This document shows, piece after piece, positions 1,692 to 13,109 of a DNA stretch of 25,785 nucleotides. Source of the DNA: a virus. The stretch spans positions 1 through 25,785 of IMG/VR virus record IMGVR_UViG_3300001848_000583; one strand, written 5' to 3'. The position numbers were made by a program, and so were the translations under genes. How positions within the stretch are numbered: the stretch's first letter is position 1; each line of letters starts with the position of its first letter. The notes under the pieces are model-generated. The model had not been told where the DNA came from, searched no databases, and saw only the letters and a program-made list of their open reading frames with translations.

Positions 1692-1699
1692 TATAAATA
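1692..1699 (+). promoter_or_regulatory. T4-type late promoter core (TATAAATA)
   Basis: Exact match to the T4 late promoter consensus TATAAATA, recognised in T4 by the gp55 sigma factor with gp33 and the gp45 clamp. It lies 27 bases upstream of the tail-fibre ATG at 1727, so initiation about 10 bases downstream would give a short leader. It directly follows the stop of the exonuclease gene, where an early/middle to late switch is expected. A gp33 homologue is encoded in the window, which agrees with T4-style late transcription. Confidence 0.8.
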
Positions 1700-1726: not shown

Positions 1727-3553
1727 ATGCCTTTACCATCATCAGGTACAATAACAATCGGTCAAATTGCTGCTCAATTCAGTTCTGTAGCTAGCGGTTA
1801 TTCATTGAGTTCTTACAACGGTGTCACTTGGTGGCTGGGTGGCGGTCCAGATGACGGTACATTAAATGGAACATTCGGCCGACCAACATCAATGTCTGCG
1901 TTTTATAACAAACAAGGTAACCAACCAGGTCCATGGATGGTCTGGATGGCTATCGGTGGTGGTGGCGGTGGAGGTGGAGGTTCTAACCCTTCATTTCCGG
2001 GGACCCCAAGAGGCGGCGGTGCCGGCGGCGGTACATATCCAGTAGCACCAGCAGGAACATTTAAAAGATGGGCATTTGGTACCGCTAGCGTCACCGTTGG
2101 AGCCGGCGGCACAGGAGGAACCTCAGCTTCAGGAGGATCAAACGGATCAGCTGGAGGTTCAACGAGTGTCACCATTGCAGGATCAACATACACAGCTCCC
2201 GGCGGAAACGGCAATAACGGTTCGGCCGGCGGCACAACACCACCTGGCGCATATTCTGGTGGCGCAGCGGGTCCATACGGAGGCGGCGGTGGTGGAAGCG
2301 CAGTTGCCAACGGCAGCGCCGGCGGACCCGGCAGTTCAGGATACGCCGGCGGACCTGGCGCAGCCGGTATTAGTTCTTGGTCGAATTTCTCAAGTAGTTT
2401 CCCCGGTTTTACAAATTTCGGCGGCGGCGGCGGAGGAAACTCATCAGTCAACGGAAACAATACGCCCTACCAAGGTGGATACAGCGGCACACCAAGTCCA
2501 ATCTATGATAAGGGCCGAGGTGGATGGTCAGGTCAAGACCAGTACGGTTATATAACATATTCCAGCACTCAAGTCACAACAGACGTTATTGGTGCGGGCG
2601 GCGGCGCAGATACTACTCTTGGCAATCACGTAGGTGGAACTGGCGGTCCAGGAGGCGTTGTCATTTCTGTCGCTTCAACTGCTGGTGGACTAAATTATGA
2701 TGGAAACTATTTTGGTTTCGTTTATGGTTCAAACACTTATTACGTATTACAATCAAGCGGAACAGTAACAACACATTTTAAACCAACAGGAACTGTAGCA
2801 TCTACAAGCGCTGGCATGAACGGTTCAAACGGTTATGTTGGCGGCAAACCAAGTTTCACTAATACAAACGGAACAACTTTCACCGGATCGTTTGTGTATC
2901 AAGGTGCTAACGGCAGTTGGTCTGTTATATTGCCTAGAAATACTGACACCGGTTCAGGATTTAGTGGTAACCAAGTTGTTGGTGTGCATCCAAGTAGTAA
3001 CTGGTCAACCGCTGAATTGGCTGAACTTGGAATTACCAGTCCCGCTTATGGTTCAAGATACCAACTTAAATATTTTGGTGTTAACCAAGATCGTGGAACA
3101 GTTATGTCATACGGAAAAATGACAAGAACTGCATATCTTGCTGCTAAGGCTGCAGGTGGAGGAAACGTTGCAATATCTGTTTTCAATAACTTCCAATCTG
3201 GCGGTAACTTTGACGGCAACTATCAAGGCGGCAACGCACTTATTCCTTGTGTTCTTTGGTCACACCATCAACCCGGCGGTCGTGGTTATGCTAACTGGTA
3301 TTATTTGAATCCGGATGATCGAACACTTGATCAAACATGGAAAACAGGAGCAGATACACTTTGGCCAAATTTCACAAGTGGATATGCATGGTCTTGTCCT
3401 GGTACTCGTCAAGGTGCAAACGGACAACCTTTGTTACCGATTTTGAGTGGTTATGCATGGACAATTGGCACAGACGATATTGTTTTCCCAGTTTGTGATG
3501 ACCAGAACGCTGGTGGTTCAAGTAACATGTATATAAGATGTAACGTTTTCTAA
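1727..3553 (+). CDS. Glycine-rich tail fibre / adhesin
   Basis: A 608-residue virion surface protein, probably a tail fibre tip or adhesin. Residues 1-65 (MPLPSSGTITIGQIAAQF...) match the N-terminal module often seen in phage fibres. Residues about 75-320 are extremely glycine-rich, with runs of 8-9 Gly and repeated GGxGG, GAGG and NGSAGG units. This resembles the polyglycine repeats of T2/T6-type gp38 adhesins and other Gly-rich receptor-binding domains. The C-terminal 290 residues are Trp/Tyr/Asn-rich, with two related DGNYxG segments, and are probably the receptor-binding or trimerisation domain. The Gly-rich part is visibly GC-richer (GGCGGC codons) than its AT-rich surroundings, so local recombination is possible. 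A late promoter lies just upstream. Shine-Dalgarno is weak (an A-run). Receptor and exact fibre type are not determinable here. Confidence 0.82.
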   Translation: MPLPSSGTITIGQIAAQFSSVASGYSLSSYNGVTWWLGGGPDDGTLNGTFGRPTSMSAFYNKQGNQPGPWMVWMAIGGGGGGGGGSNPSFPGTPRGGGAGGGTYPVAPAGTFKRWAFGTASVTVGAGGTGGTSASGGSNGSAGGSTSVTIAGSTYTAPGGNGNNGSAGGTTPPGAYSGGAAGPYGGGGGGSAVANGSAGGPGSSGYAGGPGAAGISSWSNFSSSFPGFTNFGGGGGGNSSVNGNNTPYQGGYSGTPSPIYDKGRGGWSGQDQYGYITYSSTQVTTDVIGAGGGADTTLGNHVGGTGGPGGVVISVASTAGGLNYDGNYFGFVYGSNTYYVLQSSGTVTTHFKPTGTVASTSAGMNGSNGYVGGKPSFTNTNGTTFTGSFVYQGANGSWSVILPRNTDTGSGFSGNQVVGVHPSSNWSTAELAELGITSPAYGSRYQLKYFGVNQDRGTVMSYGKMTRTAYLAAKAAGGGNVAISVFNNFQSGGNFDGNYQGGNALIPCVLWSHHQPGGRGYANWYYLNPDDRTLDQTWKTGADTLWPNFTSGYAWSCPGTRQGANGQPLLPILSGYAWTIGTDDIVFPVCDDQNAGGSSNMYIRCNVF

Positions 3554-3576: not shown

Positions 3577-4665
3577 ATGATGTATTATTATTGTTCCGAT
3601 GGAACAAAATTTGATTCAAAAATAGAAGCAGTAGAACATAGTAATAAAAACAAAGTTCAATTAAATTTTTATTACTATGATCACATCTATGAAAAATTAG
3701 ATTGGACAATAGAACCGCCACATTCACTAGATTATTACTATCTAGAGCAAGCCAAAAGAATCCGTGACGCATATGATTATGTCATATTGTGTTATAGTGG
3801 TGGTTATGATTCGACCAACATACTTGAAACATTTCATTTCAATAATATCAAATTAGATAAGATTGTATCTGTTGGTGCGTTTGACCAAGATACGATCAAA
3901 TTATCTGATGAAAATCACAACGGTGAAATTTACCATAATGTGATTCCATATGTAAAACAGTTAGGACTTGGAGACATATTACAGGTCATCGATTATACAA
4001 AGCTGTTCGACAACACCAAAAACTTTTCTATACTAAATCAAAACCAAAATTGGATCGATTTGTGTGGTGCATGGTTTAGTCCACACAATTGGTTTTGGTA
4101 TGACATAGAAAAGTTTGTTGTGCCTGAGGAATATAAAAACAAAAAAGTTGCCATAATATTTGGTAAAGATAAACCTACTTTGTTTTTTTCTCAAAACGGT
4201 GCAACATTACCGGATGGAAAAATAGAATTAAATGCATTTTGTTTTAGAGATACCCCAGTACTATCTTATGCTTCCACGGAATACAAAAGAAAGCTTCACG
4301 GCAACATCAAAAGAATAGATTTTTATTGGGATCCTGAATTTCCAAATATTTTGTTAAAACAGTTGCATGTTTTGTATAGATATCATAAAATTACATATGA
4401 ACATTCCTACAAAAAAGAAGAAGGTGTACAGAAGCTTGGAGATAAATCAATCAACGCTTTGATATATAATTTACGCAAACCAATACTTTTTAAATCTCCT
4501 AAAAGTGGTGCGTTTAGTTTAAGTTTAAGAGATAATTTCTTAAAAGAAAAAACAAATAACGACATACATGAAATGCATCAAAAAGGTATATGGGAACTTC
4601 GTTATAGAATTGGGATGGATGAACCTATTCCAATACAATCCAAATATTATAGTATAACAAAATGA
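3577..4665 (+). CDS. PP-loop ATPase superfamily protein 1
   Basis: A 362-residue protein of the PP-loop (adenine nucleotide alpha-hydrolase) superfamily. These enzymes adenylate a substrate before thiolation, amidation or reduction, as in QueC, TilS, ThiI, PAPS reductase and Asn synthetase. The signature CYSGGYDST sits at residues 72-80 (SGGxDS at 74-79), after a hydrophobic strand (YDYVIL), which is the classic ATP pyrophosphate loop. The N-terminal 70 residues and the region around the motif are clearly paralogous to the protein at 8438-9532 (LxFYxxDxxYxxLxW, then YDYxILxxSGGxDS). The rest matches no named subfamily that I recognise: I see no zinc cysteines of QueC and no TilS C-terminal domain. 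It is the first gene of the accessory operon and overlaps the next by ATGA. Substrate unknown. Confidence 0.82.
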   Translation: MMYYYCSDGTKFDSKIEAVEHSNKNKVQLNFYYYDHIYEKLDWTIEPPHSLDYYYLEQAKRIRDAYDYVILCYSGGYDSTNILETFHFNNIKLDKIVSVGAFDQDTIKLSDENHNGEIYHNVIPYVKQLGLGDILQVIDYTKLFDNTKNFSILNQNQNWIDLCGAWFSPHNWFWYDIEKFVVPEEYKNKKVAIIFGKDKPTLFFSQNGATLPDGKIELNAFCFRDTPVLSYASTEYKRKLHGNIKRIDFYWDPEFPNILLKQLHVLYRYHKITYEHSYKKEEGVQKLGDKSINALIYNLRKPILFKSPKSGAFSLSLRDNFLKEKTNNDIHEMHQKGIWELRYRIGMDEPIPIQSKYYSITK

Positions 4666-5474
4666 CAAAGAATAATTGGTTCTCAACCAATCTTAAAGAC
4701 AGAACAACAACAAACTTTTGCGATTTTGAAATACGAATATCGCCCTATGAATTCAATCACGATTCTTTTATCAACCAAGCCAAAAGAGTGGCACATGAGT
4801 TGGCAGAAAAACATGATGACCTCTATGTTTGTTATAGTGGTGGATTAGATTCAGAATTTGTATTGAAAACCTTTTATGATGAAGGTTTGCCAATTACACC
4901 GATATTAATAGATACACCTTATAATCAATTTGAATCTGAATGGGCATACAATTTTTGTAAAGAAAAAGGAATAAAACCAGAAGTTTTAACTTTTTCTAAA
5001 AATGAAATTATAGATAGACTGAAACAAAAAACAATAGATAGAAATTTGTTTTCTTTACTCGGTGGTCTTCCTTTGATTGTGTGTGATGAGGTGAATAAAC
5101 AATCAGGTAAAATTATAACTGGTTATGGAGATCCATTTGTTGTTCAAGATGGAAATATTCAAGATGAAATGATACTGGATAGATTACAGTTTTGTGAATG
5201 GGACTACTATCTTGATGATTATGACAACACACATCCTTCTGGTTTTTTTACCTATGATATAGGATTGTTTTTTGCACTTATATGTGAAATAGATATGTTT
5301 TGTCCTTCACAACAAGCCAAAACAAAATTATATGAATTGCCATATAGAATCAAAATGTTTTGGAAAAAAGAATTCTATGAAACTTTTCATGAAATGAAGT
5401 TGAACATTGAAACGCCTTACTGTTTTATGGAAAAATCCGATTTGATTTCAAACTTAAATCAATTTATAAAATGA
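4662..5474 (+). CDS. PP-loop ATPase superfamily protein 2
   Basis: A 270-residue second PP-loop protein, more compact than its neighbour. The motif CYSGGLDSEFVLK has SGGLDS at residues 59-64, followed by a strand-helix pattern (ITPILIDTPYNQFESEWA) resembling the PAPS-reductase/ThiI/ExsB fold. The start ATG overlaps the upstream stop (ATGA at 4662), so translation is coupled, and its own stop overlaps the next start the same way. The C-terminal half is rich in Phe, Tyr and acidic residues and shows no recognised extra domain. Coupling to a divergent PP-loop paralogue suggests the two may act as a hetero-complex or in consecutive steps, but that is inference. Reaction and substrate are unknown. 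Confidence 0.8.
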   Translation: MTKNNWFSTNLKDRTTTNFCDFEIRISPYEFNHDSFINQAKRVAHELAEKHDDLYVCYSGGLDSEFVLKTFYDEGLPITPILIDTPYNQFESEWAYNFCKEKGIKPEVLTFSKNEIIDRLKQKTIDRNLFSLLGGLPLIVCDEVNKQSGKIITGYGDPFVVQDGNIQDEMILDRLQFCEWDYYLDDYDNTHPSGFFTYDIGLFFALICEIDMFCPSQQAKTKLYELPYRIKMFWKKEFYETFHEMKLNIETPYCFMEKSDLISNLNQFIK

Positions 5475-5914
5475 TCTATGTATTTTATTTTTTCTTGTGG
5501 ACTTTCGTGCTTTATTGGATACATCGTGCAACTCATAAGATTAAATTCGTCAACAGATACCACTCTAAACACCATTCGTTTATCAATAAAAATATAAGAT
5601 TGGGCAATCAAAATAAATGGCATTGGAACAATCTTTTTTTGTTCAATGATGATCTGGAAAGCACGATTGATTTGTGGATAACAGAAGTTATACCAACATT
5701 GATATTTTCTTTGGTCACAGGCCATTGGTGGATTTCAGTATTTTACTATGTGTGGGCAGCCTTCATACAAGAGTCGGTGGAACATAACCTAAATATTGAT
5801 TATCCACTATTACTAAATGGAAAAAGACATTTAATTCATCATGAATTACCAAATAAAAATTTTGGATTATTTTTTCCTATATGGGACCAACTATTCAAAA
5901 CTTACCAAAAATGA
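5471..5914 (+). CDS. Membrane fatty acid hydroxylase / sterol desaturase-like di-iron protein
   Basis: A 147-residue integral membrane protein of the fatty acid hydroxylase superfamily. These enzymes use a non-haem di-iron centre held by histidine clusters to hydroxylate lipids or carotenoids. All expected clusters are visible: HRATH (His18, His22), HSKHH (His31, His34, His35), a lone ESVEHN (His105) and HLIHH (His120, His123, His124). Hydrophobic segments at about 1-17 and 73-99 would be the membrane spans. It is short for the family (often 200 residues or more) but keeps the complete ligand set, so activity is plausible. It is translationally coupled by ATGA overlap to the PP-loop gene upstream. 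In context it might modify a host-membrane lipid or act on a cassette product; the substrate is unknown. Confidence 0.8.
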   Translation: MIYVFYFFLWTFVLYWIHRATHKIKFVNRYHSKHHSFINKNIRLGNQNKWHWNNLFLFNDDLESTIDLWITEVIPTLIFSLVTGHWWISVFYYVWAAFIQESVEHNLNIDYPLLLNGKRHLIHHELPNKNFGLFFPIWDQLFKTYQK

Positions 5915-5923
5915 GGTTAAAAA

Positions 5924-6301
5924 ATGGCAGAAGTAAAAACTGTTTACAACAGAGAAAATCCAGATATTGATTGGTTTGTAATTAATCCTGCAACAGTTCA
6001 ACAAGATTTTACAAAAAAAGAATTGGAAATACTTTCAAAAGATTTGGATAAATTGAGAAATCCTGAAGGACTGATTTCAAAACATGATGAATTTCCTGAT
6101 GCACAAACAAAATATACAATTCTAACTTTTGATACATTAGATAATGCTAATACAGCTTATGAGATGTTGACTAAAAGAATGACAGAAAGAATAAATCTAT
6201 TAACACAAAAAAGAACAGCTCTTGGCCAAAATATTGTTCGAATTTTTGTTATTGATGATGAAGGCAATATCATTAATTCTGATTGGCCTGAATTCATTTA
6301 A
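5924..6301 (+). CDS. Small protein of unknown function, possible dimeric alpha/beta fold
   Basis: A 125-residue soluble protein that I do not recognise. It has an acidic, charged N-terminal half (DFTKKELEILSKDLDKL) and a central strand-helix unit (YTILTFDTLDNANTAYEML) followed by a second strand (NIVRIFVIDDEGNI). That alternation resembles a ferredoxin-like or dimeric alpha/beta-barrel fold. There is no signal peptide, no membrane segment and no cysteine. The start is supported by AGGTTAAAAA just upstream. It lies directly before a radical SAM gene within the same operon, so it could be a partner or, less likely, a substrate of that enzyme. No function is assigned. Confidence 0.7.
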   Translation: MAEVKTVYNRENPDIDWFVINPATVQQDFTKKELEILSKDLDKLRNPEGLISKHDEFPDAQTKYTILTFDTLDNANTAYEMLTKRMTERINLLTQKRTALGQNIVRIFVIDDEGNIINSDWPEFI

Positions 6302-6319
6302 TTTTTTTATTTTTATATT

Positions 6320-7660
6320 ATGTTTCATAAAGATACTTTTTGTATATTGCCTTGGTCATCCATTCAAATAAATCCATCAGGTGATTTTAAAATTTGCGGT
6401 TTTTCTGGAGAAACCGGTGAAGATGGTAAAAGCCTGAATCATGGAATGTGCCTTGATGAAAACGGCAAAACGATGAATGTGATGACACATTCTATCATGG
6501 ATGCTCTGAATAGTGAAACGCACAAAAAGATTAGACTTGCACAATCCAGAAATGAAAGACATCCTATGTGCAAGGTTTGTTGGGACAGGGATGACGCCAA
6601 CAAAAACAACGAAATCTCATCTTCTCTAAGATTTTTCAGATCATTCAAGCAAATTCATGATTTGGAAGGCGTCATCAATTTTGAAAAAGTTTCTGATCAT
6701 TTAACGGAAGATGGAAGCGTAGAACAAATACCAATAAGTCTAGAACTCAGATTGAACAATACTTGTAATATGAAATGCATCATGTGTAGTTCAATATACA
6801 GCAACTTGTGGTATGAAGATGAATATAAATTGTATGGGACCAAAAATATAATTCTTGATGGTAAAATATACAATATAAAACAAGAAAATGGTGTTTGGAA
6901 ATCCGATATGCAAGTTTGGCATGAATCGGAAAATTGGAAAAAACAATTCGAACTAATTAAAAGAAATATAAGACACCTTTATATCATGGGTGGAGAACCT
7001 TTTGTAATTAAAGGTCACGATGAACTATTAGAAAATTTAATTGAATCCGGTTGTTCAAAAAATATCATATTAGAGTATGACACCAATTTAACCGTAATTA
7101 ACAAAAAAATATTAAATAAATTTGAGAATTTTAAAAAAGTTGTTTTGTCTGTAAGTTGTGATGATATTAACGAACAGTATGAATACATCAGATATCCTGG
7201 AAAATTTAATGTAATGACAAAGAATTTGGAATTATTAAAAGAACACGGTATAAAAATTCGTAATCTTTCTACTTGTATTGGAATATATTCAATATATTCT
7301 CCAATCAGAATGTGTGAATACTTTACAAAATTAGGTTACACACCAGAATCTTCTTTATATGGTAAAGAAATGTTTTCTTTGAGATTTTTAAGATGGCCAT
7401 CACATTCAAACGTTGCACTATTACCAAAAGAATTAAAATTAAAAGTTATAGATTTGTATAAAAATTCCAGTTTATCTGAGAGATGGAAAAATTTCTTATG
7501 TGATTATATCGAAAATAATATGAATACATTTTCGGAAGAAGTTTGTGTTCAGTCCGTTAAAGAACACATAAATTATTTGAATAGATTGGACGAAATAAGA
7601 GGCACCAATTGGAAAAAAACTTTTCCAGAAATTGTTGAATTATTGAAAGATTATGTATGA
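6320..7660 (+). CDS. Radical SAM protein with auxiliary (twitch/SPASM-like) cysteines
   Basis: A 446-residue radical SAM enzyme. The [4Fe-4S]-binding motif CNMKCIMC (Cys149, Cys153, Cys156; CxxxCxxC) follows a strand LELRLNNT. YIMGGEPF at 221-228 is the GGE motif that contacts S-adenosylmethionine. An N-terminal block FCILPWSSIQINPSG with KICGF, then CKVCW at 84-88, gives further cysteines typical of the phage twitch-domain radical SAM proteins, which place this auxiliary-cluster-like module before the barrel. Such proteins occur in T4-like aquatic phages with unknown substrates. The stop overlaps the next gene start (ATGA at 7657). Neighbouring PP-loop and hydroxylase genes suggest a shared biosynthetic or modification pathway (inference). 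No clear Shine-Dalgarno precedes the start, only a T-rich leader. Confidence 0.85.
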   Translation: MFHKDTFCILPWSSIQINPSGDFKICGFSGETGEDGKSLNHGMCLDENGKTMNVMTHSIMDALNSETHKKIRLAQSRNERHPMCKVCWDRDDANKNNEISSSLRFFRSFKQIHDLEGVINFEKVSDHLTEDGSVEQIPISLELRLNNTCNMKCIMCSSIYSNLWYEDEYKLYGTKNIILDGKIYNIKQENGVWKSDMQVWHESENWKKQFELIKRNIRHLYIMGGEPFVIKGHDELLENLIESGCSKNIILEYDTNLTVINKKILNKFENFKKVVLSVSCDDINEQYEYIRYPGKFNVMTKNLELLKEHGIKIRNLSTCIGIYSIYSPIRMCEYFTKLGYTPESSLYGKEMFSLRFLRWPSHSNVALLPKELKLKVIDLYKNSSLSERWKNFLCDYIENNMNTFSEEVCVQSVKEHINYLNRLDEIRGTNWKKTFPEIVELLKDYV

Positions 7661-8436
7661 AAAAACTGTTTATTGTGTTGGCCTTACTGGCCAGTATATG
7701 TCATGGTCAAACGATTGAATTTGTTGTAAAATCCTCTCCCGGAGGTCCTGATGATACAATTACACGTAAAATTGTAGAACATTTGGAGAAAACAACATCT
7801 TTAGATTTTGTTGTAATGAATAAACCTGGTGCTGCACACCTTATTGGTTACACACACTTTGAAAATAATGTTGGACCCAGTTTAATTATTGCCGATGCCA
7901 ACATTCAACTACATCCCGTATACCATAAATCAGAAAATCTTTTCACGTTGGGTGAGTTTACCAACATTTTATTTGTTAGAAATGGAAGTGGTATAGAACA
8001 TGTAAATGATCTTTATGAAATTTCCAGTAAACGTGAGATTAAATTTGGCCACGGCGGCGAAGGAACATTTAGTCATACCGCAGCAGTTAAGTTGTGTGAA
8101 CAAGGATTGCGTTGTCTATATGTTCCATACAAATCTGGCGCACCAGGTATGATTGATTTGATGAGTGGTACTATCGATGCATTTGCTATAGCATCATATG
8201 GTTCAACACATCATCTATCAAACAACAAACTCAAAGCAATCATGTTGTATTCAAATACAAAACATCCAAAGATGGATGTGTCTTTGTTGCCAAACAATCT
8301 AAAGAAAATAGAAATTAGAAATTCTATTATGATATACTCACGCAATTTATCTGAAAAGCAAACTAAAGAAATCAAAAAATCACTTTCGTCTTTAGATAAA
8401 GATTTTTTGATTGAATCTGGTCTTTGGGTTAAATGA
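7657..8436 (+). CDS. Bug/TctC-type periplasmic solute-binding protein 1
   Basis: A 259-residue exported protein of the Bug family (the TctC receptor family of tripartite tricarboxylate transporters), which binds small carboxylates or related solutes in the periplasm. Residues 1-17 form a signal peptide (KKLFIVLALLASICHG, cleaved before QTIEF). Then come SSPGGPDD, matching the family's N-terminal binding loop, and VPYKSGAPGMIDLMSGTID at about 160-178, the family hallmark. It is shorter than cellular Bug proteins (about 320 residues). No TctA or TctB membrane subunits are visible, so it would have to use host permeases or work differently. Bug proteins are hugely expanded in Betaproteobacteria, a hint to the host. 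Coupled by ATGA overlap to the radical SAM gene. Ligand unknown. Confidence 0.85.
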   Translation: MKKLFIVLALLASICHGQTIEFVVKSSPGGPDDTITRKIVEHLEKTTSLDFVVMNKPGAAHLIGYTHFENNVGPSLIIADANIQLHPVYHKSENLFTLGEFTNILFVRNGSGIEHVNDLYEISSKREIKFGHGGEGTFSHTAAVKLCEQGLRCLYVPYKSGAPGMIDLMSGTIDAFAIASYGSTHHLSNNKLKAIMLYSNTKHPKMDVSLLPNNLKKIEIRNSIMIYSRNLSEKQTKEIKKSLSSLDKDFLIESGLWVK

Positions 8437-8437
8437 T

Positions 8438-9532
8438 ATGATTTATTATTCCGTCAATAACAAACAATTCAGTAATGAATTTCTAGCACAATACGAGTCT
8501 TATAAAAGTGGTTGTTCAATTAAATTTTATTGCAATGATGATCTATATGATAACTTAAATTGGCTTAACGAACCAGAAGAAAGTATGGATGTGTTGATGG
8601 ATATACATGCTTTAAATTTGAGGCAGAAATATGATTACATCATTTTAAATTGGTCTGGTGGTACAGACAGTCATACCATATACAATGTTTTTAAACGAAA
8701 CAATATTCACATAGATGAAATTGTGGCAAAATATACTCTTACTGATTTTTTTCCAAAAAGAAACGTTGAATGGATACAAGAAAACCATTGGGATCCAACT
8801 ACAAAGATAACCGTTATTCGTGACCATGAAAAAATAAAAAGAAAAACAGCCACATACGATGAAAATTGGTTGTTTGATGATTCGTCATCATTTAAAAGAT
8901 TTGGATTTAGTGGCGTTGATTCAAGTGATATAAGAGTGGCAGAAGATAATTATGGACATAAAAATTGGTGTATAATTGTCGGATTTGAGAAACCTTATTT
9001 GATTAACATAAATTCATCTTATTACAGTACGATTCCCGATAATAGTGTGCGAGCCGTTATAGGGAGCAATTCTAGAATAGAATGTTTTTTCCTTGAACCT
9101 AAAATACATCTTAAACAATCACATTTACTAAAAAAATATTTGAAAAATAATCCTAATGTGGATATGAAGGACCCTTATGGATATAGAGATGATGTTTTTA
9201 AAAGATATAATATAATATCAAGTGCTATAGGTAGACATGATGAGTTATTTTTTGGTGTAAGTGCGACACAAAAAAGTATCAATAAAAAAAGAATACAGAA
9301 TACGGTAATAACAGATAACGTTAAATTGATAGATTTCAATTCTAATGACGTTTTCTTGGATGAAAAGTTAAGAGATGGTGATGAGATGGCTTTGAATTAT
9401 CTAAAAGGTTTTTATAATTTAAAATCGGATAGCAATTTTTGGAAATTTCTAAACGATAATTCGTTTAAAACACCAAACGGTGTATTTACTTCTAAACCTA
9501 TTTTTTCAAAATTCTATAATATTGGAAATTAA
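8438..9532 (+). CDS. PP-loop ATPase superfamily protein 3
   Basis: A 364-residue protein paralogous to the PP-loop protein at 3577-4665. Both begin with MxYY and share IKFYxxDxxYxxLxWxxEP, then YDYIILNWSGGTDS here, with SGGTDS at residues 73-78. I placed the start at the ATG at 8438, one base after the upstream stop, because it reproduces the paralogue's N-terminus; an upstream TTG at 8411 would overlap the Bug gene. The C-terminal 200 residues differ from the paralogue and are Lys/Asn-rich without a recognised domain. It sits between two Bug-type genes with 1-base gaps, so the whole set is evidently one operon. It is likely an ATP-dependent adenylating enzyme of unknown substrate. Confidence 0.8.
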   Translation: MIYYSVNNKQFSNEFLAQYESYKSGCSIKFYCNDDLYDNLNWLNEPEESMDVLMDIHALNLRQKYDYIILNWSGGTDSHTIYNVFKRNNIHIDEIVAKYTLTDFFPKRNVEWIQENHWDPTTKITVIRDHEKIKRKTATYDENWLFDDSSSFKRFGFSGVDSSDIRVAEDNYGHKNWCIIVGFEKPYLININSSYYSTIPDNSVRAVIGSNSRIECFFLEPKIHLKQSHLLKKYLKNNPNVDMKDPYGYRDDVFKRYNIISSAIGRHDELFFGVSATQKSINKKRIQNTVITDNVKLIDFNSNDVFLDEKLRDGDEMALNYLKGFYNLKSDSNFWKFLNDNSFKTPNGVFTSKPIFSKFYNIGN

Positions 9533-9533
9533 A

Positions 9534-10379
9534 ATGAATAAATTTTTATTTTTGTTAATATTTTGTTTAACTGCACATGCAGAGCCAATTAATATTGTAA
9601 TGCCTGTTTCTCCTGGAGGAAATGTTGATGTTTTCGCTAGGGCTTTTAGTAAGGTATTGACAGATAATTCAATCGAAAACGTCATAACATACCAAGCCGG
9701 AGGACAAGGTGATATAGCTTACAATGCAGTAATGAATAAACCGGATACATCTATTCTTATTGGAGCATTACACACGTTTGTTTTCAGCCATGTATTCCAA
9801 GACAGAGAAAACATTCATTCCAAAAATATGAAACTCTTTGTTCCTATGGTTGAAAATCCATTCACATTTATAACGACACCAAACGGATTCAGTTCATTTA
9901 AAGAAATGATAGAGTATGCCAAGAAAAACGTCCTTCCATGCGGAGTCAGTAATGCCAACAGTATGGAGCTAATTCGAATAAATAAAGAATATAAAACAAA
10001 ATTTGAACCCATTCCGTACAAAGGAACTGCACAAATTAAAACGGATCTTTTGGGTAATCATATAAAATGTGTATATGATGGTGCAGGTGCATATATGCAT
10101 GATAATATTAAATATCTAGCATCTAATATCAATATTAAAGATATTCCGAAAATTTCTTCTGTTTTGACAAATTACAATTTTAATATGTGGCTTGGTGTTG
10201 GAATACCAAATGATAGTAAATTGTTGAAAAATGAAAAGTTATTAAATGTGATTGATACATTAAATCAAAACAAGGAATATATACAAAAATTAAATGATCA
10301 TCAACTGTTTATAAATTCATATAATAAATCAAATGGCACAGTTGATAGGATTACCGAACAATATAGGGCTTTACAATAA
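9534..10379 (+). CDS. Bug/TctC-type periplasmic solute-binding protein 2
   Basis: A 281-residue second Bug-family protein. From the ATG at 9534 it has a clear signal peptide (NKFLFLLIFCLTAHA, cleaved before EPINI). Then come VMPVSPGGNVDVFAR, the family's N-terminal ligand loop, and PIPYKGTAQIKTDLLGNHI, the characteristic YKG segment followed by a hydrophobic helix. I rejected an in-frame GTG at 9480 because it would bury the signal peptide inside the preceding gene. The two Bug proteins of this operon are divergent, so they may bind different ligands. It ends the accessory operon; a sigma-70-like promoter and a new gene follow. Exported host-type genes of this kind in a phage are candidate auxiliary metabolic genes; ligand and effect are unknown. 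Confidence 0.85.
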   Translation: MNKFLFLLIFCLTAHAEPINIVMPVSPGGNVDVFARAFSKVLTDNSIENVITYQAGGQGDIAYNAVMNKPDTSILIGALHTFVFSHVFQDRENIHSKNMKLFVPMVENPFTFITTPNGFSSFKEMIEYAKKNVLPCGVSNANSMELIRINKEYKTKFEPIPYKGTAQIKTDLLGNHIKCVYDGAGAYMHDNIKYLASNINIKDIPKISSVLTNYNFNMWLGVGIPNDSKLLKNEKLLNVIDTLNQNKEYIQKLNDHQLFINSYNKSNGTVDRITEQYRALQ

Positions 10380-10418: not shown

Positions 10419-10724
10419 ATGCGTAAAGTAATACTTTCAGTAACACTCACACTAGCCGCAATGTCTGCTAATGCACAATGGCATCATCACCAACACTATT
10501 ATCATGGCGGCGGTGGTATCGGTTGGGCTTTTCCTGCATTAGTTGGTGGTGTTATTGGATATGAAATCGCAAGGCAACCTGCACCTGTTGTGGTTCAACC
10601 ACCAGTTGTAGTTCAGCCTCAAGTAGTTACTGATCCTAATCTTGTAATTGTAAACGGTGTTTTATATCGCAAGGTTATGATGCAAGTAAATGGCACTTAT
10701 CAGGAGGTCCTGGTAAGACCATAA
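10419..10724 (+). CDS. Small exported His/Gly-rich protein
   Basis: A 101-residue exported protein. The signal peptide covers residues 1-19 (KVILSVTLTLAAMSANA, cleaved before QWHHH). Next are a His-rich patch (HHHQHYYHGGGG), a hydrophobic Gly-containing segment (FPALVGGVIGYEIA) resembling one glycine-zipper span, and a Pro/Val-rich stretch (APVVVQPPVVVQP). The C-terminus is a short strand-rich region (VIVNGVLYRKVM). Similar small glycine-zipper proteins occur in Gram-negative envelopes. I cannot name a family and assign no function. The start is supported by AAGGAG seven bases upstream. Its stop lies immediately before the tmRNA acceptor piece, so it may share the tmRNA precursor transcript. 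Confidence 0.72.
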   Translation: MRKVILSVTLTLAAMSANAQWHHHQHYYHGGGGIGWAFPALVGGVIGYEIARQPAPVVVQPPVVVQPQVVTDPNLVIVNGVLYRKVMMQVNGTYQEVLVRP

Positions 10725-10789
10725 TATGGTTGTATGAAGCAACTTGAAACGTGTTCAAGACGCCGGTTCGACTCCGGCCTGGTCCACCA
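10725..10789 (+). ncRNA. tmRNA acceptor piece
   Basis: Holds the T arm and aminoacylation end: T stem GCCGG (10762-10766), loop TTCGACT (10767-10773), T stem CCGGC (10774-10778), acceptor strand CTGGTCC (10779-10785), discriminator A (10786) and an encoded CCA (10787-10789). A G-U pair in the acceptor stem is present, although the usual alanyl-tRNA synthetase determinant is the third pair: here G10884-T10783 is exactly the third pair, as alanine charging requires. The 5' boundary is uncertain because the upstream gene stops at 10724. A local alternative hairpin CTTGAA/TTCAAG (10743-10759) competes with P2. Confidence 0.9.
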
Positions 10790-10881
10790 TAAAACACATT
10801 GACTGGCCTCTAGGTAATAGTCAACATGAAGCCGAGCAAGGATGCAGAGTCTCGGATTAAAGACTAAGTGTGTTTTATAAT
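10790..10881 (+). other. tmRNA intervening segment (predicted to be excised)
   Basis: This 92-base segment separates the acceptor and coding pieces. It is structured: ATAAAACACA (10789-10798) pairs with TGTGTTTTAT (10869-10878), extending the acceptor helix after a small mismatch. Inside lie two hairpins, TTGACT/AGTCAA (10799-10824) and CCGAG/CTCGG (10832-10855), giving a three-way junction. In known permuted tmRNAs this segment is removed, with RNase P making the 5' end of the coding piece. Pairing is directly visible; processing is inferred. Confidence 0.75.
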
Positions 10882-11053
10882 GGGCCAGTCATTGGTTTCG
10901 ATTGGGCAAATAGTATAGAAGTGGACAACTCGACACAGAGAGTCGCTAAAAGTAAATCAAGTAAATGCAAATGATGAAAAGTTCGCATTGGCTGCCTAAG
11001 TAAAGGCACCTAGGGTTTTGGTGATTGTACCTCGTAACAGAATCAATCACCAA
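10882..11053 (+). ncRNA. tmRNA coding piece with tag ANDEKFALAA
   Basis: Starts with the acceptor strand GGGCCAG and the D-loop analogue TTGGTTTCGATTGGG, closely matching bacterial tmRNA 5' domains (GGATTCGACGGG in E. coli). A pseudoknot-1-like hairpin CGAC/GTCG lies at 10931-10945. The tag frame runs 10967-10999 with resume codon GCA and reads Ala-Asn-Asp-Glu-Lys-Phe-Ala-Leu-Ala-Ala-stop, close to E. coli ANDENYALAA and ending in the LAA degron read by ClpXP. A P5-like hairpin (TGCC/GGCA) spans the tag stop. A 10-bp stem TTGGTGATTG/CAATCACCAA (11018-11053) closes the 3' part. The 3' end is approximate. Confidence 0.92.
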
Positions 11054-11076
11054 CATGTTCAACTATAGGAGAAAAT

Positions 11077-11637
11077 ATGAAAATTAAAAACGTAATTTTG
11101 GCAAGTTTGCTTGCAGTCGGATCCACCGCATTTGCTCAATCAGTAACAATTGGTTACGCATTGCGTGATTTGGCCACAGGTCAACAAGAACACCAAAATA
11201 GTTTTTCGGTTAAATCACCAAGTTTTGGTTCATTGACAGGTGATGTTGGTGTTTCAGCTTCACAAAATGACAAAACTTTTGTTTTGACTAATCGTTATGA
11301 AATTGGTGTTACACACAGTCAACCTTTGCCTGCCGGACTTTCAGGTGATTTCCGTGTAGCCCAAGGATGGAAAGCAAAATCTGGTATTGATACCACAACA
11401 TATTATGTTTTGGAACCTTCTTTGACAAGTAAAATTGCAGGAACTCCTGCTTCTGTAAAAGTTGGTTATCGTGTGCGTAATGCATGGGATTCCAACGTTG
11501 CAGACAACTCCAAGACCACTCGTCTAGCAGTTGCATACGATTTGACTAAACTCGATAAAGTTAGTCTAGGTCGTGATTGGCAGCGTGGTGATGGTGCTTT
11601 GCAACAAACCACATTGCAATATACCAGAGCATTCTGA
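11077..11637 (+). CDS. Small outer-membrane beta-barrel protein
   Basis: A 186-residue exported protein with signal peptide KIKNVILASLLAVGSTAFA (cleaved before QSVTI). The mature part (about 166 residues) alternates hydrophobic and polar residues in 7-8 strand-like units (SVTIGYALRDL, VSASQNDKTFVLTNRYEIGV, TYYVLEPSLTSKIAG, SVKVGYRVRNAW, TTRLAVAYDLT, TTLQYTRAF). It ends in a terminal Phe, the classic BAM-recognised beta-signal of outer-membrane proteins. It resembles small porin-like 8-stranded barrels of Betaproteobacteria. Start supported by AGGAG (11064-11068). It directly follows the tmRNA. Possible roles are modification of the host surface, nutrient uptake or superinfection exclusion; none is shown. 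Confidence 0.75.
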   Translation: MKIKNVILASLLAVGSTAFAQSVTIGYALRDLATGQQEHQNSFSVKSPSFGSLTGDVGVSASQNDKTFVLTNRYEIGVTHSQPLPAGLSGDFRVAQGWKAKSGIDTTTYYVLEPSLTSKIAGTPASVKVGYRVRNAWDSNVADNSKTTRLAVAYDLTKLDKVSLGRDWQRGDGALQQTTLQYTRAF

Positions 11638-12485: not shown

Positions 12486-13109
12486 ATGTATGAAACTAAA
12501 ACAAATGAACTTAGGGTAAATTGTATATTTCCTGTAACGATCTGTGATATTGATATTGACCGTGATTTTACTGAAGAAGAATTGAAGTTTGTTTCTAAAC
12601 ATAAAGAATTAACTACTGAAAATACTCTGAATAAAACAAGTCAAAACACATTCATTTTAAATTCGGATGAAATGACGGATATCAGGCAGTTTTGTTTGTT
12701 AAACACATCAAAATACTTTCATGAAGTGTTAAAGGTACACCCTGCTACAAGTTTGTATATCACACAATCTTGGTTGAATTTTTCCGGAAATCAACAAGGA
12801 CACCATACACATTCTCATCCGAACAGTATTGTGAGTGGTGTTTTTTATTTTGAATCTGATGAGAATGATAAAATAAAATTCCACAGGTCCTATGATTCAG
12901 ATCCTTTTCCGAAAACTGAATATGATATTTTAAATTCCGAAACATGGTGGTTTCCTGCCACAAAGGGTAAACTAATATTGTTTTCATCAAAGACGGTTCA
13001 TTCTGTTGACATTAGGGAAAGTAATGTTCCTAGAATAAGTTTGTCCTTTAATACATATTTCAAAGGACAAATTGGACATCCTTCTCATTTGAATTATTTG
13101 AAACTTTAA
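12486..13109 (+). CDS. 2-oxoglutarate/Fe(II)-dependent oxygenase, phage type
   Basis: A 207-residue protein of the 2OG-Fe(II) oxygenase superfamily as found in T4-like aquatic phages. The strand YITQSWLNFSGN is followed by the iron-site block HHTHSHPNSIVSGVFYF (from His106), then a jelly-roll half ending with WWFPATKGKLILFSS and the distal His172 (KTVHSVD). Arg183 in VPRISLSFNT is the probable 2-oxoglutarate contact. These enzymes hydroxylate protein, nucleic-acid or small-molecule substrates; the phage version's substrate is unknown. It is the first gene of a run leading into gp33, gp59 and gp32, with 1-2 base gaps, so it is probably co-expressed with replication and late-transcription functions. 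No clear Shine-Dalgarno. Confidence 0.82.
   Translation: MYETKTNELRVNCIFPVTICDIDIDRDFTEEELKFVSKHKELTTENTLNKTSQNTFILNSDEMTDIRQFCLLNTSKYFHEVLKVHPATSLYITQSWLNFSGNQQGHHTHSHPNSIVSGVFYFESDENDKIKFHRSYDSDPFPKTEYDILNSETWWFPATKGKLILFSSKTVHSVDIRESNVPRISLSFNTYFKGQIGHPSHLNYLKL

Follow-up and report, generated by a model that had tools for sequence, protein, structure and literature searches.

A conserved, modular phage gene cassette of PP-loop ATPases, an exchangeable oxygenase and solute-binding proteins

An eight-gene locus behind a tail-fibre gene

The 25,785-base, AT-rich IMG/VR virus record IMGVR_UViG_3300001848_000583 (hereafter, the window) contains eight closely packed genes encoding three PP-loop ATPases (PP1, PP2, and PP3), a fatty-acid hydroxylase (FAH), a small protein, a radical SAM protein and two solute-binding proteins (Bug1 and Bug2). 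Do these genes form one functional unit and, if so, what would a phage make with it? The genes travel together among phages, are tightly coupled, evolve under purifying selection and have kept their catalytic motifs. As to their role, we hold at about an even chance that they form a conserved, late-expressed, modular biosynthetic cassette making or tailoring a carboxylate-derived small molecule. Many uncultured water-borne tailed phages carry the cassette, which resembles a small chemical assembly line, directly behind a tail-fibre gene. The eight genes span positions 3577-10379 (about 7 kb):

3577..4665, + strand: PP1, PP-loop ATPase of an unnamed phage family with an asparagine-synthetase-like fold (SGGYDS)
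4662..5474, + strand: PP2, PP-loop ATPase with a core like that of NAD synthetase, LarE and TtuA (SGGLDS)
5471..5914, + strand: FAH, membrane di-iron hydroxylase of the fatty-acid-hydroxylase family (PF04116 FA_hydroxylase, 62.5 bits; cut-off 31)
5924..6301, + strand: small protein family, a regular cassette member (34 open reading frames (ORFs) in cassette loci by iterative hidden Markov model search)
6320..7660, + strand: radical SAM protein with an N-terminal twitch domain, an optional member (N_Twi_rSAM NF033640, 280.5 bits; cut-off 170)
7657..8436, + strand: Bug1, probably exported TctC-type solute-binding protein, short form of 259 amino acids (PF03401, 35.5 bits; cut-off 27)
8438..9532, + strand, ATG at 8438: PP3, PP-loop ATPase, paralogue of PP1 (SGGTDS; GxEKP motif)
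9534..10379, + strand: Bug2, probably exported TctC-like solute-binding protein (TctC, 23.5 bits, below the cut-off of 27)

The genes, their order, coordinates and coupling agree with an initial annotation of the window, as do the flanks, a Gly-rich tail protein upstream and a tmRNA downstream. Five of the seven junctions are overlaps or 1-base gaps: PP1/PP2, PP2/FAH and radical SAM/Bug1 overlap at ATGA, and single bases separate Bug1 from PP3 and PP3 from Bug2. The gaps on either side of the small gene are 9 and 18 bases long. Comparison with the nearest relative (L005; related loci are given by number) gave a ratio of nonsynonymous to synonymous substitution rates of 0.04-0.25 in all six comparable genes, and this purifying selection indicates that the six are functional genes rather than chance ORFs.

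Conservation of the cassette among phages

The PP1 profile recovered 41 IMG/VR loci on about 40 distinct contigs, and a pattern scan of GTDB genomes found no PP1 relatives. Co-occurrence was scored at the 29 PP1 loci with at least 4.5 kb of downstream sequence. PP2 was present at 27 of these loci, Bug at 24, PP3 at 23, FAH at 20, and the radical SAM gene at five; PP2, PP3, and Bug occurred together at 23. Overlaps or distances of at most 3 bases made up 82 of the 92 core-core junctions. Distances between parts correlated across phages (r 0.52-0.80, Mantel p 0.001), as expected under co-inheritance. The usual order in one large group of loci was tail fibre, Gly-rich adhesin, a 140-amino-acid protein, PP1, FAH, PP2, small protein, PP3, and Bug, followed on the opposite strand by 2-oxoglutarate (2OG) oxygenases and another solute-binding-like protein.

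A coupled multi-gene function had been proposed from the sequence, and the co-occurrence counts, neighbour controls (below) and Mantel tests make the association conserved and statistically clear. The converse, that the genes occur independently in related phages as unlinked cargo, is ruled out by the same co-occurrence counts and neighbour controls. The eight-gene composition stood in part: the core recurs, while the radical SAM gene and the second Bug are optional. The recurrent core is composed of PP1, PP2, PP3, a solute-binding protein, an O2-dependent oxygenase and the small protein, with swaps.

Searches (tblastn) with PP1, PP2, and PP3 against 50,697 cultured-phage records returned no match, which is why the cassette has escaped study. 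In cultured phages FAH gave a single match at 25% identity, in an Acinetobacter phage record, and the DctP matches among these records resemble host sequence.

Modules, enzyme swaps and accessory genes

FAH was found in 126 viral contigs. A PP-loop gene lay within three genes of FAH in 71 of 79 fetched loci, compared with 31 for random genes from the same loci (maximum 44 in 2,000 draws), and PP2 was the next gene in 31 of 56 FAH clusters. The PP3 family was found in 336 viral contigs. Of 53 loci outside the cassette set, 30 had PP3 immediately beside a solute-binding protein (expected 7, maximum 14). These partners were TctC-type or DctP-type (PF03480, E about 1e-54). Among the TctC-type Bug homologues of the PP3 set, 62 of 65 had a signal-peptide-like start by a crude rule. 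TctC, DctP and TctA are carboxylate-handling families, and TctC and DctP bind carboxylates; that PP3 handles a carboxylate is suggested chiefly by its having partners from carboxylate-binding families. TctA was found in L009 and L183 and a TctA-like gene in L049; the window contains no TctA or TctB gene. Signal-less DctP-type (TRAP) proteins directly follow PP3 in L183, L186, L191, L209, and others, apparently as cytoplasmic relatives of a periplasmic family.

Two exchanges were seen within the cassette. A Rieske oxygenase lay between PP1 and PP2 in five loci, at the position where FAH mostly sits. The tally of oxygenases was 32 cassettes with FAH, five with Rieske, none with both and four with neither, an exclusion with a chance probability of 1.7e-4 when loci are treated as independent, with no phylogeny correction. 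Amidoligase_2 (Pfam) substituted for PP3 and Bug in L046, L047, and L050. Both swaps preserve the type of reaction (O2-dependent hydroxylation and amide formation, respectively), as expected of a pathway with fixed steps.

Additional genes accompanied some cassettes: a NodU-type carbamoyltransferase (L013), an ATP-grasp enzyme (L049), TctA (L009), a methyltransferase (L036), and QueC (L040). Near FAH-PP2 in other phages were desaturases, B12-type radical SAM proteins, cytochrome P450, an Asp/Asn hydroxylase, TauD, acyl carrier protein and a thioesterase. In L186:3123-9291 (also L187 and L189) two PP3 genes flank a tryptophan halogenase (PF04820, 2.8e-52) and are themselves flanked by Bug and a DctP-type protein. 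Both the accessory genes and those swapped in encode enzymes typical of tailoring, which supports the earlier suggestion of a small-molecule, lipid or glycan modification. Parts of the cassette occur in hundreds of phage contigs beyond the 40 or so that carry it, and the swaps fall at fixed positions; such conservation implies that phages gain from a specific, apparently undescribed chemistry.

PP-loop proteins

The PP-loop signature is intact in all three proteins. PP1 and PP3 matched no Pfam or NCBIfam family, so that the cassette uses enzyme families missing from Pfam, and PP2 matched weakly; PP3 had one weak match to a PHROG annotated as PAPS reductase. Neither PP1 nor PP3 matched the Asn_synthase profile (PF00733), for which marine PP2 scored 14.7 bits, under the cut-off of 21.

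Models were predicted with AlphaFold2 for PP1 (pLDDT 76, pTM 0.82) and PP2 (pLDDT 94, pTM 0.92). The structure-based comparison that had been suggested placed PP1 nearest to AsnB (Foldseek 4.7e-4), with beta-lactam synthetase, carbapenam synthetase and LarE also among the nearest, and PP2 nearest to LarE (4.9e-7) and the carbapenam synthetase CarA, all with low TM-scores. PP1 shares with the asparagine synthetase B group the PP-loop motif and its nearest solved folds, but lacks the N-terminal glutaminase domain, just about 50 residues preceding the PP-loop domain. The PP2 profile aligned with NH3-dependent NAD synthetase NadE (1.1e-5) and TtuA (9e-4). The likeness of PP2 to NadE, LarE and TtuA is limited to the PP-loop core (TM-scores 0.3-0.46), and for the LarE equivalog (TIGR00268) PP2 scored 17.7 bits against a cut-off of 150. 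Close structural relatives of PP2 were only uncharacterised proteins from uncultured phages. Going by these folds, the nearest chemistry for the proteins is one in which a carboxylate is adenylated and an amide then formed; the alternative is sulfur transfer.

L005 carries two PP1 genes in tandem (L005:6413-8605), which are 81% and 52% identical to that of the window. A further AsnB-like PP-loop family, starting with YIPHRL and 354-357 amino acids long, occurs near FAH in L067, L091, L098, and relatives, accompanied by a conserved protein of about 208 amino acids.

Hydroxylase, radical SAM and Bug proteins

Nine His residues were invariant across 18 FAH homologues: H18, H22, H31, H34, H35, H105, H120, H123, and H124. 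With these di-iron His clusters and a score above the profile cut-off, FAH is assigned to PF04116; lipid hydroxylation is its putative activity. The radical SAM protein carries the CxxxCxxC motif as CNMKCIMC, scored 47.3 bits for Pfam Radical_SAM (cut-off 29.5) and belongs to the N_Twi_rSAM family. Bug1 and Bug2 both have a signal-peptide-like N-terminus, and the C-terminal part of Bug1 is shortened relative to homologues of about 300 amino acids.

Probable late expression

The window encodes T4-type genes identified by PHROGs: single-strand binding protein, tail tube, baseplate tail-tube cap, and baseplate hub. Two features precede the cassette:

1692..1699, + strand: T4-type late promoter motif (TATAAATA); the tail-fibre gene follows after 35 bases
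1727..3553, + strand: Gly-rich tail-fibre/adhesin-like gene leading into the cassette; conserved in L005

PHROG and Pfam searches with the Gly-rich protein returned zero matches; it resembles T-even gp38-type adhesins. TATAAATA also preceded the tail gene leading into the cassette in L005 (by 36 bases), L027 (27 bases), and L032, L034, L041, L047, L052, and L055 (76 bases each). The window holds one copy and chance would give 3.2, so nothing follows from the number of copies by itself; with about three chance copies expected in this AT-rich window, the promoter evidence is just suggestive. Co-transcription of the cassette with the tail fibre late in infection would be the simplest reading of this arrangement.

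Proposed function and alternatives

In the biosynthetic reading, read-through from the T4-type promoter ahead of the tail-fibre gene would carry transcription into the cassette late in infection. PP1, PP2 and PP3 would adenylate a carboxylate, or a comparable oxygen function, with ATP, leading to an amide or similar bond; asparagine synthetase, beta-lactam synthetase and NAD synthetase are the models for this step. FAH would hydroxylate the intermediate, with a Rieske or 2OG oxygenase acting instead in other phages, the radical SAM enzyme may contribute an optional step, and the Bug proteins might hold the carboxylate substrate or product in the periplasm. More tentatively, and at somewhat less than even chances, PP-loop enzymes that pair with carboxylate binders of the TctC or signal-less DctP type could, along with an exchangeable oxygenase, lie at the heart of an extensive, unrecognised class of phage specialised metabolism, through which uncultured aquatic phages would make an amidated or oxidised compound late in infection. 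A PP-loop gene adjoining a TctC or DctP gene provides a search rule for related phage pathways.

Several observations weigh against the biosynthetic reading. The PP1 and PP3 profiles matched no solved structure among PDB sequences and the Foldseek TM-scores of the PP-loop proteins were low (0.2-0.46), so that amide chemistry is only the commonest chemistry of the nearest folds; LarE and TtuA, which transfer sulfur, are no more distant from PP2. L043 and L044 retain only PP1 behind their tail genes, indicating that PP1 may act alone, and the conservation of gene order partly reflects common descent of the phages. The DctP-type partners of PP3 in other phages had a signal peptide in none of 21 cases; the missing export signal argues that binding matters rather than import, and the binding proteins need not serve transport.

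The strongest rival, which we nonetheless regard as unlikely, is that the cassette amidates, hydroxylates or in some other way alters a host surface glycan or lipid such as an O-antigen sugar acid, lipid A or another envelope lipid; a changed receptor would then keep progeny from being lost to debris or rivals from superinfecting. The product may be a free metabolite, a lipid or a surface glycan. The position behind an adhesin, the membrane-bound hydroxylase, the desaturase partners, and the NodU-type carbamoyltransferase of one relative all suit surface decoration, as do a UDP-sugar dehydrogenase and a cytidylyltransferase that L062 encodes close to FAH-PP2 and the lipopolysaccharide-modifying gene clusters described in jumbo cyanophages (PMC7824862). 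However, neither the window cassette nor the core turned up a glycosyltransferase, flippase or acyltransferase, the solute-binding proteins are left unexplained, and late transcription poorly matches an early superinfection exclusion.

Modification of the virion itself, in which the enzymes would target the Gly-rich tail adhesin or some other tail protein encoded on the shared late transcript, appears improbable. The cassette always stands directly behind tail-fibre and tail-fibre-assembly-like genes, the late promoter motif is in common, and PP1 alone persists behind tail genes in L043 and L044, but putatively exported Bug proteins and a membrane hydroxylase fit this role poorly, and FAH-PP2 and PP3-Bug pairs are found away from tail genes too. 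We give equally little credence to nutrient scavenging, in which the Bug proteins would aid carboxylate uptake via a host tripartite tricarboxylate transporter (TTT) and the rest would be loosely associated metabolic cargo. Bug/TctC and TctA do occur in several loci, phages carry the periplasmic binding protein PstS (PMC6359870) and tctA is reported on SUP05 viral contigs (PMC4164917); set against this are linkage far above chance, the shortened Bug1, the missing TctA and TctB of the window and the 21 DctP-like proteins that have no signal peptide. A deazaguanine DNA modification, with PP2 acting as QueC to make modified guanines for phage DNA, is highly improbable. Its basis is a weak QueC similarity of PP2 and the QueD/FolE/QueE-like genes near FAH-PP2 in L059, L062, and L093, whereas the QueC score was 12.5 bits against a cut-off of 22, Bug and FAH are ill-suited to it, and no QueD (PTPS) was found in the 105-158 kb cassette contigs of L034, L045, L051, and L055, which may be incomplete. 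As a general role, it is disfavoured by the QueC score and the missing QueD.

Relation to described systems

The initial annotation had named no system of this composition, and we found no description of such a cassette in the literature searched. The closest described kind is a gene cluster in the jumbo cyanophage S-SSM6a, whose carbamoyltransferases, 2OG oxygenases, halogenase, cupins and methylases have been predicted to yield either a halogenated secondary metabolite or a capsule decoration (Iyer et al., 2021, PMC7824862). Both are multi-gene phage clusters of tailoring enzymes, and genes for a carbamoyltransferase, 2OG oxygenases or a Trp halogenase occur in some relatives of the cassette. 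However, the available description mentions none of the proteins that form the core of the cassette: PP-loop ATPases, a fatty-acid hydroxylase and solute-binding proteins (PMC7824862). Conversely, neither the carbamoyltransferase nor the halogenase of an S-SSM6a-type core is present in the window cassette, each being found in some relatives.

Bug1 resembles the TTT receptor TctC, scoring above the TctC cut-off, and TctA is present in the relatives L009 and L183; in contrast to a TTT system, the window has neither TctA nor TctB, and the shortened Bug1 is paired with a cytoplasmic PP-loop enzyme. Viral contigs from SUP05 carry tctA (a TTT-transporter domain) and 2OG oxygenase genes with no role assigned (Roux et al., 2014, PMC4164917); the available text reports them as separate genes and does not mention a PP-loop cassette.

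Probable hosts, possible larger clusters and outlying genes

Downstream of the cassette, at 10682-11090, the window encodes a permuted (two-piece) tmRNA of betaproteobacterial type. A beta-type tmRNA follows the cassette in a second group of loci that contains the window, which suggests Burkholderiales-type hosts for this group; the tmRNA also lies 3' of the cassette in L005, L010, L012, L013, L024, and L028.

The PP2 profile had a single hit in GTDB, on a contig of a Bdellovibrionaceae metagenome-assembled genome (L056:2400-7553). There PP2 is followed by a protein that we read as small-family-like, a fatty-acid desaturase, an Asp/Asn hydroxylase (Asp_Arg_Hydrox), and a second desaturase; another Asp/Asn hydroxylase lies upstream, as does a GNAT-like gene, and the remaining genes appear chromosomal to us. 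This cluster parallels the phage ones, so such pathways are probably not purely viral. Two fatty-acid desaturases, FAH, PP2, and PP3 occur in L079 (a 348 kb contig), L065, and L080, with a B12-type radical SAM protein in L079 and L065 and a P450 in L079; these large contigs possibly hold larger biosynthetic clusters. The window also encodes a 2OG-Fe(II) oxygenase at 12486-13109 (phrog_81, 3.4e-31), beyond both the tmRNA and an endolysin-like gene; this oxygenase is possibly an outlying member of the pathway.

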